Below, piece by piece: positions 60,663-64,000 of a DNA stretch of 64,000 nucleotides. The notes below the pieces were generated by a model. That model was given only the letters and a program-made list of their open reading frames with translations, ran no database searches and was not told where the DNA came from. Each line of letters starts with the position of its first letter. Positions within the stretch are counted from its first letter, which is position 1. The position numbers were made by a program, and so were the translations under genes. This DNA is from Bacillota bacterium (GTDB lineage Bacteria; Bacillota; Clostridia; Christensenellales; Pumilibacteraceae): the NCBI GenBank assembly GCA_009780325.1, contig WRAF01000003.1:1-64000 (forward strand), read 5' to 3'.

Positions 60663-62627
60663 ATGAAAGAAATTAAAATTACATTAAAAGACTTATCGGT
60701 TATAGAGGTACAATTAAACTCTAGTGCATTAGAAGTAGCTGCAATAATTTCAGAGGGTCTAGCAAGAGTAGCATTAGCATGCAAAATTGACGGTGTTTTA
60801 TCAGATCTTAGGACACCATTAACTAAAGATTGTGCCTTAGAGATTTTGACATTTAAAGATGAAGAGGGGAAAAATATTTATCGTCATTCTTGTGCTCATA
60901 TTTTAGCAATGGCGGTCAAATCAATCTATCCTGATGTCAAATTAGGGATTGGTCCGCACATTAGAGACGGTTTTTATTATGATTTTGATTTTCCTTCTCC
61001 TATTACACAAGAAGATTTTGTACACATTGAAGCAGAAATGCAAAATATAATCAAAGCTGATTTGCCGATTACAAAAATTATCGTACCTAGAAAAAGCGCA
61101 TTATCTCAAATGCGTGCTTTTGAAGAGTCATACAAAATTCAATTGATTGAAGAAATATCAAAAGATAATGATATTTTCTTTTATAAGATGGGTGATTTTT
61201 CTGAACTTTGCTCAGGACCTCATATTAGCTCTACGGGCAAAATTAAAGCATTTAAATTGACTCAACTTGCAGGAGCATATTGGAGAGGCAGTGAAAAAAA
61301 TAAAATGCTGACAAGAATTTATGGTACATGCTATGAAAAGAAAGCAGACTTAACAGAACATCTAGAGCGTTTAGAAGAAGCCAAAAGACGAGATCATAAT
61401 AAGCTAGGCAGAGAGTTAGGATTTTTTATGACTGAAGAAAAGATTGGTCAAGGTTTGCCGCTATTAATGCCAAAAGGGGCAAAGTTTTTTCAAATATTAC
61501 AACGTTTTGTTGAAGATGAAGAAGAAAGAAGAGGCTATGTATTAACAAAAACTCCATCATTTGCAAAAAGTGATTTATATAAAATTAGCGGTCACTGGGA
61601 TCATTATAAAGATAGTATGTTTATTATTGGAGAAGAAAATACTGTTTCTATCACACATAATACCCTTCAAAAAGCAAAATCCGACCATGTTTTTGCATTA
61701 AGACCGATGACTTGCCCATATCAGTATATGATTTATAAAAATGGCTTGAAAAGCTATAGAGACTTGCCCATTAAATACAATGAAACAGCAGCTCTTTTTA
61801 GAAATGAAAACAGCGGCGAAATGCACGGTTTAATCAGAGTACGTCAGTTTCATTTGTCCGATGGTCATGTAATTTGCACGCCTAGTCAACTTGAAAAAGA
61901 ATTTAAGGATTGTTTTGAGCTATCTATTTTCTTTTTAGATAAAATCGGAATGCTGGGTGATGTATTTTTTAGATTCTCTAAACGTGATTTGCAAAAGGAT
62001 AAATATATAGGGAGTTTAGATACTTGGAATTTAGCAGAAAGTTCAATGAAAAATATTCTAGATTCAATGAATATCGAGTATACTGAAGCTGAAGGTGAAG
62101 CAGCATTTTATGGACCTAAATTAGATATTCAGTTTAGAAATGTATACGGAAAAGAAGATACTTTAATGACTATTCAAGTGGATTTATTTTTGAGTGAAAA
62201 GTTTGACATGACTTATGTTGCTGAAGGTGGTGAAAAAAAATATCCTTATATTATTCATAGGTCGGCATTTGGCTGCTATGAGAGGGTGATGGCGGCATTA
62301 ATAGAAAAATATAGCGGATCGCTGCCTCTTTGGATGTCACCAATGCAGATAGCTATTTTGCCTGTAACAGATAGGGCTATTGTTAGGGCAAAAGAAATTG
62401 AAGCGGAGTTAAAGTCTGAAGGATTAAGATGTGAGGTAGACTATAGAAATGAAAAGCTTGGATTTAAGATAAGGGCAGCTCAGGTCGAAAAAATTCCTTA
62501 TATGCTTGTTTTAGGAGATAAAGAAATTGAGAATAACATGATTGCAATAAGAGAACGTCACCAAGGAGATTTAGGTACAATGACATTAAAGGATTTTTTA
62601 AAGAGAATTAAAAAAGAATTAAAGTAA
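60663..62627 (+). CDS. thrS: Threonyl-tRNA synthetase
   Basis: HSCAHILAMAVKSIYP; RPMTCPYQYMIYKNGLKSYRDLPIKYNE; GLIRVRQFHLSDGHVICTP. Confidence 0.97.
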   Translation: MKEIKITLKDLSVIEVQLNSSALEVAAIISEGLARVALACKIDGVLSDLRTPLTKDCALEILTFKDEEGKNIYRHSCAHILAMAVKSIYPDVKLGIGPHIRDGFYYDFDFPSPITQEDFVHIEAEMQNIIKADLPITKIIVPRKSALSQMRAFEESYKIQLIEEISKDNDIFFYKMGDFSELCSGPHISSTGKIKAFKLTQLAGAYWRGSEKNKMLTRIYGTCYEKKADLTEHLERLEEAKRRDHNKLGRELGFFMTEEKIGQGLPLLMPKGAKFFQILQRFVEDEEERRGYVLTKTPSFAKSDLYKISGHWDHYKDSMFIIGEENTVSITHNTLQKAKSDHVFALRPMTCPYQYMIYKNGLKSYRDLPIKYNETAALFRNENSGEMHGLIRVRQFHLSDGHVICTPSQLEKEFKDCFELSIFFLDKIGMLGDVFFRFSKRDLQKDKYIGSLDTWNLAESSMKNILDSMNIEYTEAEGEAAFYGPKLDIQFRNVYGKEDTLMTIQVDLFLSEKFDMTYVAEGGEKKYPYIIHRSAFGCYERVMAALIEKYSGSLPLWMSPMQIAILPVTDRAIVRAKEIEAELKSEGLRCEVDYRNEKLGFKIRAAQVEKIPYMLVLGDKEIENNMIAIRERHQGDLGTMTLKDFLKRIKKELK

Positions 62628-62635
62628 ATTAACAT

Positions 62636-62668
62636 AATTGCATTGCTACTATTAGTAGCAATGCAATT
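62636..62668. repeat. Perfect 15-bp-stem hairpin downstream of thrS
   Basis: aattgcattgctact - att - agtagcaatgcaatt; no T tract follows. Confidence 0.75.
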
Positions 62669-62774
62669 ACTAATTGTGGCAGTTTATAACAATAATATTG
62701 TTGTCATTTTGAAAGCTTTATAGTATATTATAAAATAGTTAATTAGCTATAAAAAACTTAAAGGAGGAATAAAA

Positions 62775-62894
62775 ATGTCAAACAATAACATATGCACTTG
62801 TCCAACTTGCAACTGCCCAAATTGCCCTTGCACACCAACAGAATGTAAATGTCTACCAGAATGTAACTGCAGTTGCAAATGCAATAAACAATAA
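62775..62894 (+). CDS. 39-aa Cys-rich (metallothionein-like) peptide, not in the ORF track
   Basis: MSNNNICTCPTCNCPNCPCTPTECKCLPECNCSCKCNKQ*; 12 Cys of 39 residues; strong SD aaggagg 7 nt upstream. Confidence 0.8.
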   Translation: MSNNNICTCPTCNCPNCPCTPTECKCLPECNCSCKCNKQ

Positions 62895-62899
62895 TAATT

Positions 62900-63151
62900 A
62901 TGGATGCTAAGATAGTAGGAATACGCATTATGGAGGGACGCAAGAAATTGGGTCTCTCTAGAGTGCAATTTGCTTTAAAAGTCAATATAAGCCAGCAAGC
63001 TGTAGGCAAGTGGGAACGAGGTGAAAGTTTGCCAGATATTTTTATGCTTGCAAAAATTGGTGAAGTAATTGGAATCACAGACATGTGCTATTTTGTAGGT
63101 AAAGATCCATGCGTTTGCGACTGCGGCTGTTGTCCTTGTTGCATAAAATGA
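62900..63151 (+). CDS. XRE-family HTH regulator with Cys-cluster C-terminus
   Basis: GIRIMEGRKKLGLSRVQFALKVNISQQAVGKWERGESLPDIFMLAKIGEVIGI then DMCYFVGKDPCVCDCGCCPCCIK; starts 5 nt after the Cys-rich peptide stop. Confidence 0.85.
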   Translation: MDAKIVGIRIMEGRKKLGLSRVQFALKVNISQQAVGKWERGESLPDIFMLAKIGEVIGITDMCYFVGKDPCVCDCGCCPCCIK

Positions 63152-63168
63152 AACTGCTTTCATTTTTA
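63145..63168 (+). terminator. Weak AT-rich terminator-like hairpin
   Basis: aaaatgaaa - ctgc - tttcatttt at the end of the HTH gene. Confidence 0.4.
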
Positions 63169-63227
63169 GATAAATTTCTACAAAAATTCTTATAATTCCT
63201 TAGTCTAGAAATATTAAAATTATATAC

Positions 63228-64000
63228 ATGACAAGGAGCATTGTTATTACATCAGGCAAGGGCGGAGTAGGCAAAACTACGCTTGCTGCTATGTTGGGCA
63301 GAACACTAGGATTATTAGGTCTTAGAGTTTTATTAATTGACACAGACATGGGTCTAAATAATCTTGATGTTGTCATGGACATAGAACGCAAGGTTGTTTT
63401 TGATATTGTAGATGTTTTAAATGGAAAATGCAGATTAAAGCAAGCCTTAGTTGAAGATATCATAGAAGGTGTTTTTATATTGCCTTCTAATCACACCTAT
63501 GACAAATCAAACATAACATCAGCTACCTTGAGGAATTTAATACAAAACCTAATAGGCTTTGATTTTTGCATACTAGATTGTCCAGCGGGAATTGAAGCAG
63601 GATTCCATAGAGCAGTAAGTGCAGCCAATGAAGCAATTGTAGTATCCACTCCGCATCTATCAGCACTTAAAGATGCAAATAAAGTGCTGTCAATTTTACA
63701 ATCATATAAAATGAATACTAGCTTAGCATTAAATAGAGTACGAGGTGATTTAATTGTAAGTGGAGATTATTTGTCACCTTTGGATATTAAAAATAGTTTA
63801 TCCGTACCTTTGATTGGAGTCGTACCTGAAAATGATGATATAGGAATTTTTTCTAATCAAGCACTAAATAAAAATAATGCAGCCTTTAATGCAGCAATGA
63901 TGATGGCAAAAAATTTGATATACGAAAGTGAAAATTTATTTGATACTACAAAGGCGTTTAAAGGTTTCTTTGGGCGTTTAAAAAGAAAGGGAAGGAGACA
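63228..64000 (+). CDS. minD: Septum site-determining ATPase MinD (partial, runs off window)
   Basis: MTRSIVITSGKGGVGKTTLAAMLGRTLGLLGLRVLLIDTDMGLNNLDVVMDIE; no stop before 64000. Confidence 0.9.
   Translation, partial: MTRSIVITSGKGGVGKTTLAAMLGRTLGLLGLRVLLIDTDMGLNNLDVVMDIERKVVFDIVDVLNGKCRLKQALVEDIIEGVFILPSNHTYDKSNITSATLRNLIQNLIGFDFCILDCPAGIEAGFHRAVSAANEAIVVSTPHLSALKDANKVLSILQSYKMNTSLALNRVRGDLIVSGDYLSPLDIKNSLSVPLIGVVPENDDIGIFSNQALNKNNAAFNAAMMMAKNLIYESENLFDTTKAFKGFFGRLKRKGRR

Follow-up and report, generated by a model that had tools for sequence, protein, structure and literature searches.

The question raised by this locus is whether a very small, cysteine-rich open reading frame and the regulator gene directly behind it form a functional unit, and how such a unit would be controlled. 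The window, i.e., the whole stretch of 64,000 nucleotides analyzed, carries on its + strand at 62775–62894 the gene of a metallothionein-like peptide of 39 amino acids (MSNNNICTCPTCNCPNCPCTPTECKCLPECNCSCKCNKQ), preceded by the Shine–Dalgarno sequence AGGAGG (62762–62767, + strand). The original prediction of a 39-residue, 12-Cys reading frame with a strong ribosome binding site thus agrees with the sequence, coordinates included. The peptide contains 12 Cys in 39 residues, no His and no aromatic residue. With its small size, its richness in Cys, the CxC/CxxC spacing and the lack of aromatics it has the composition of the functional class of metallothioneins, whose members bind metal through thiolate clusters, as the peptide probably would. 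Comparison with Pfam, NCBIfam and the PDB yielded no meaningful match, and none of the curated Pfam and NCBIfam metallothionein models recognized the window peptide or any of nine relatives. The 12-Cys reading frame is not a chance occurrence. When a lax filter for Cys-richness was applied to the small ORFs of the 64-kb window, a single further ORF passed, with 6 Cys.

The ATG of the regulator gene (62900–63151, + strand, 83 amino acids) is found at 62900, five nucleotides past the stop codon of the peptide gene. Its product is a member of the XRE family (HTH_3 at 49.7 bits, Pfam cut-off 23), and its C-terminus (PCVCDCGCCPCCIK) contains 7 Cys, the codons of the Cys tail CVCDCGCCPCC occupying 63110–63142 on the + strand. 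This tail is kept in 12 homologues, most commonly in the form CxCxCGCCxCC. In an AlphaFold model the DNA-binding domain, of five helices, is predicted confidently and the tail with low confidence, which is what a tail that takes up its fold only with bound metal would be expected to show. No SD-like run is present in the 20 nt before the ATG, so that the description of a regulator gene lacking its own Shine–Dalgarno sequence, starting 5 nt behind the peptide stop and ending in a Cys cluster, holds. The translational coupling proposed from this arrangement is plausible in the window and in most relatives, with a gap of 0–18 nt in eight of the ten intact pairs, but it is not universal, the gap being 98 and 152 nt in the other two. 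Just past the XRE stop there is an A+T-rich inverted repeat (AAATGAAA/TTTCATTT, 63147–63168) followed by T, which is possibly a weak terminator; the terminator scan did not detect it. A riboswitch or structured leader was rejected on the grounds that 62400–63300 gave no Rfam match.

Does the pair recur? With only the XRE as query, 40 relatives yielded five close Cys-tailed homologues, among them a second copy in the window genome (G000:C9), and the DNA upstream of these five carried a Cys-rich peptide gene every time, in one case frameshifted as read. A profile search of 74 family genomes gave two further copies in G088, one of them without a peptide start, and MAGs of the genome collection with the names Lab288 and Emb289 supplied another four. 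The same pair was also found in L059 (genome-collection scan) and in G268 (order search). The search for such a peptide beside Cys-tailed XREs, which had originally been put forward as the check on the pairing, thus revealed it to be conserved: directly upstream of the 12 Cys-tailed XREs found in related Clostridia, second window-genome copy included, the Cys-rich peptide gene is intact in ten cases and damaged in two, compared with none of 93 control XREs (72 from Bacteroidota with the same recognition helix and 21 other clostridial ones). The peptides had not been used to retrieve the Cys-tailed XREs, and the association of peptide and XRE is therefore independent evidence. Since the contig scan of the genome collection used two short patterns, more distant members were probably missed. 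A peptide profile run against the 74 family genomes hit four places, every one a known pair; because it missed known pairs, solitary peptides without an XRE may have escaped it too. Judged from these comparisons of sequence, the peptide and the Cys-tailed XRE are a real, conserved two-gene module, which apparently has not been described so far. In a termite MAG study (PMC7024585) Lab288 and Emb289 stand for Labiotermes labralis and Embiratermes neotenicus, and the termite-gut link of the window genome is drawn from its relatives.

Across the loci the peptides range from 24 to 53 amino acids and from 9 to 22 Cys. Three of them, from the different loci of the window, G004 and WRBV, have the Cys frame CxCxxCxCxxCPCTPxECKCxPECxCxCxC in common; here all 12 core Cys are kept, with 3–7 synonymous TGC/TGT switches per pair and a dN of 0.18–0.26, which again speaks against a chance reading frame. 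In the tree the Cys-tailed XREs formed groups of nine and three, which does not demonstrate a single origin of the tail, and one clade was not rejected (p-AU 0.40). A possible intermediate form was seen in L054 and L129 (G161), where the XRE has a short CPCC at the position of the tail, extends C-terminally beyond it and is not accompanied by a Cys peptide.

The window pair lies between thrS (ending at 62627) and a minD-like gene (starting at about 63228), both names being read from translations. As the gene neighborhoods differ between loci and only 5 of the 74 family genomes passed the XRE search, the pair is best described as a patchy, stand-alone unit. Such patchiness would also suit a toxin–antitoxin pair or a phage-type module of regulator and small protein, and phages are known to carry a transcription factor that activates an adjacent small-ORF gene (PMC10432266). 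No member was found in viral contigs, however, plasmids gave partial XRE matches only, PADLOC matches were confined to the HTH, and the matching Cys tail would be left without a role, which makes this explanation very improbable; the viral and plasmid results also led us to discard a phage or plasmid origin of the pair. We give still less credit to a RiPP/TOMM reading, in which the peptide would be a precursor for modification and the XRE its regulator. A small Cys-rich ORF next to an XRE would fit such a cluster, and one relative matched the listeriolysin S model at chance level (E 0.11), but YcaO was absent from all six carrier genomes (the control was positive in E. coli and archaea) and no constant modification enzyme is encoded near the pairs.

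Around the pairs no metal-transport or metal-resistance gene recurs consistently, and the diverse surroundings do not point to any one type of metal. One pair (G088:C174, L160) immediately follows arsM, an arsenite methyltransferase gene (338 bits, cut-off 263), whose product ends in CCCCGGKC. In the damaged pairs L048 (G007:C6) and L161 (G088:C33) the next gene encodes a related class I methyltransferase and either overlaps the XRE stop or adjoins it. Upstream of one damaged pair there is a thioredoxin-reductase-like gene, which could be taken to favor a thiol or redox sensor, in which the peptide would buffer oxidants or electrophiles and disulfide formation in the XRE tail would be the signal. 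The relatives are termite-gut anaerobes, and a Cys-rich tail and peptide would suit either role. Yet a CxC/CxxC density of this kind without His or aromatics is typical of metal–thiolate clusters, and the pairs have no consistent redox neighbor; we regard this explanation as improbable.

How, then, is the module controlled? In 11 of the 12 pair loci, where 0.5 would be expected, a 13-bp imperfect palindrome (CAACTAANNGTRG in most loci) is present upstream of the promoter and is our predicted operator; the one pair locus without it is the one that has lost the peptide start. Often there are two copies about 21 bp apart, the tandem spacing ranging from 20 to 31 bp. In the window the predicted distal operator (CTACTATTAGTAG, 62646–62658) has the motif common to these 11 loci, and the predicted proximal one (TTACTAATTGTGG, 62667–62679, + strand), a weaker match, follows 21 bp after it, a spacing also seen in the Bacteroidota relatives. 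The −35 element TTGTCA (62701–62706, + strand), assigned by consensus match only, and the −10 element TATATT (62724–62729, + strand) are separated by a 17-bp spacer, the latter lying 44 bp past the end of the proximal operator. Whereas 62700–62775 had been proposed as the candidate region for the regulator, the predicted operator is situated instead at 62646–62679, upstream of the −35 element. The distal operator is also the center of a longer palindrome (62635–62669) with a perfect 16-bp stem and no T run on the + strand; this palindrome may also serve to end the thrS transcript.

The distance from the end of the operator to the −10 element is 34–35 bp in eight loci, 44–45 bp in two and 24 bp in one; the window belongs to the second group, its −35 element being 10 bp more distant than in most relatives. 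All 11 sites thus lie on one helical face, whereas 2000 shuffles reach at most seven, and the distance is equal within 1 bp in eight loci, whereas the shuffles reach at most six; the promoter used for the distance count was picked by consensus score alone, and the shuffle figures are not strict probabilities because the loci are related. The 40 bases past the operator are otherwise only 37.5% identical (median), and common descent alone therefore explains the fixed distance poorly. In the window genome the motif gave 11 strand matches at 10 places, compared with 8 for the reversed-pattern control, and 7 of the 10 places are inside long open frames. The full arrangement occurs only at the two pair promoters, and the regulator therefore seems to be dedicated to the peptide and itself; a large regulon was rejected on the same counts. 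Taken together, the comparison of the loci shows the Cys-rich peptide and the Cys-tailed XRE to be a conserved unit with a dedicated, predicted operator at a fixed, helically phased site upstream of one promoter.

The same arrangement is found in another phylum. The 72 Bacteroidota XREs (L056–L127) have the recognition helix of the Cys-tailed XREs and, where checked, end in pentapeptide repeats in place of the Cys tail. The operator motif is present upstream of 69 of these 72 XRE-pentapeptide loci as two or three tandem operators, neighboring copies being 21 bp apart in 94 of the 116 listed intervals and the last copy ending 33–34 bp before TAnnTTTG in 50 of 62. XREs of two phyla thus combine one recognition helix with one upstream motif and geometry, and this strongly suggests that the XRE binds the 13-bp operator. 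Since the same distance is kept to two different promoter types, contact with RNA polymerase is the best explanation and activation is favored. The Bacteroidota tandem array itself is apparently an undescribed self-regulatory array that is common in the phylum.

Autoregulation, as the original prediction had it, is therefore strongly suggested by the dedicated operator, and as to the sign of control the helical phasing suggests activation, not repression. By analogy with the small controller proteins of restriction–modification systems, the bound XRE probably switches on its own operon through contact with RNA polymerase. Several points count against a metal-responsive activator: repression can likewise be exerted from an upstream site, the proximal window operator is a weak match, the window −35 element is 10 bp farther away than in most relatives, no metal-transport or metal-resistance neighbor recurs, and the peptide fits no known metallothionein model. 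In a repressor of the SmtB/SmtA kind, the XRE bound upstream would hold the promoter down until metal on the Cys tail releases it. Prokaryotic metallothionein expression has been described as negatively regulated (PMC8790569), many XREs are repressors, and the pair promoters agree well with the consensus (mean score 10.0 vs 7.9 in shuffles), as for promoters needing no help. But the operators are placed upstream of the −35 element without overlapping the promoter, and their fixed, helically phased distance is kept with two promoter types; we hold repression to be rather unlikely.

For the activator, a mechanism can be outlined. A thiophilic ion (Cu(I), Zn, Cd, As(III) or similar) would bind the flexible Cys tail and alter DNA binding, oligomerization or activation by the XRE, so that the operon is induced. 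The peptide made would then sequester the ion and compete for it with the tail, the original prediction also having both bind the same metal; this competition would place the positive autoregulatory loop under negative feedback. That metal is bound, which metal it is and in which direction control acts are what we infer here. We consider the chances of the model as a whole, a self-contained operon responding to metal (or thiols), to be evenly balanced. The more specific proposal, that the XRE is a metal-sensing activator which uses a metallothionein-like tail as sensor to drive a metallothionein, with operator, spacing and promoter contact in common with Bacteroidota, is put forward tentatively and with somewhat less confidence.

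If correct, it would add a regulator class to the control of bacterial metallothioneins, one that works by activation instead of derepression, and would bring in a metallothionein-like peptide family which no profile recognizes. It would represent a minimal, positively controlled homeostasis circuit of two genes, sensor and buffer being made from the same Cys motif, and would show a small DNA-binding module gaining a new sense by exchange of its C-terminus. With the operator rule, the large and uncharacterized group of Bacteroidota XRE-pentapeptide regulators becomes testable as well.

In the open-access literature, whose coverage is incomplete, we found no paper linking a bacterial metallothionein with the XRE family. 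The Bacteroidota XRE-pentapeptide regulators are alike in recognition helix, operator motif, 21-bp tandem spacing and operator–promoter distance, but have a pentapeptide-repeat C-terminus and no Cys-rich peptide gene. The phage modules of transcription factor and small ORF (PMC10432266) likewise place a regulator beside a small-protein gene; the pair, in contrast, is not phage-borne as far as searched, its small protein is Cys-rich and its regulator Cys-tailed. The controller proteins, also small XREs, are autoregulatory and recruit sigma while bound at a site upstream (PMC4041747). C.Esp1396I, C.AhdI and C.BclI resemble the window regulator as XREs of about 80 amino acids, controller proteins are among the fold matches of its predicted structure, and autoregulation from an upstream operator is likewise proposed here, in a geometry that would suit autoactivation. 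Unlike them, the pair has a Cys tail and tandem operators 20–31 bp apart, all upstream of the promoter, and no restriction endonuclease or methyltransferase genes of such systems were found beside the pairs in the window (thrS, minD-like) or in relatives. The cyanobacterial metallothioneins with SmtB/ArsR repressors, SmtA–SmtB, NmtA–AzuR and BmtA–BxmR, in some cases in one operon (PMC8790569), share the combination of a small Cys-rich protein and a dedicated transcription factor. No ArsR-type regulator accompanies the peptide gene here, its partner being HTH_3; two HTH_5 genes occur elsewhere in the window genome. While those systems use an ArsR regulator, the present one has an XRE with Cys in its C-terminal tail, an operator upstream of the −35 element in activator-like geometry, and a peptide without His and without a match to metallothionein models. 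Compared with the known systems of metallothionein plus regulator, the XRE class, the proposed Cys-tail sensor and the activator-like promoter are thus new.
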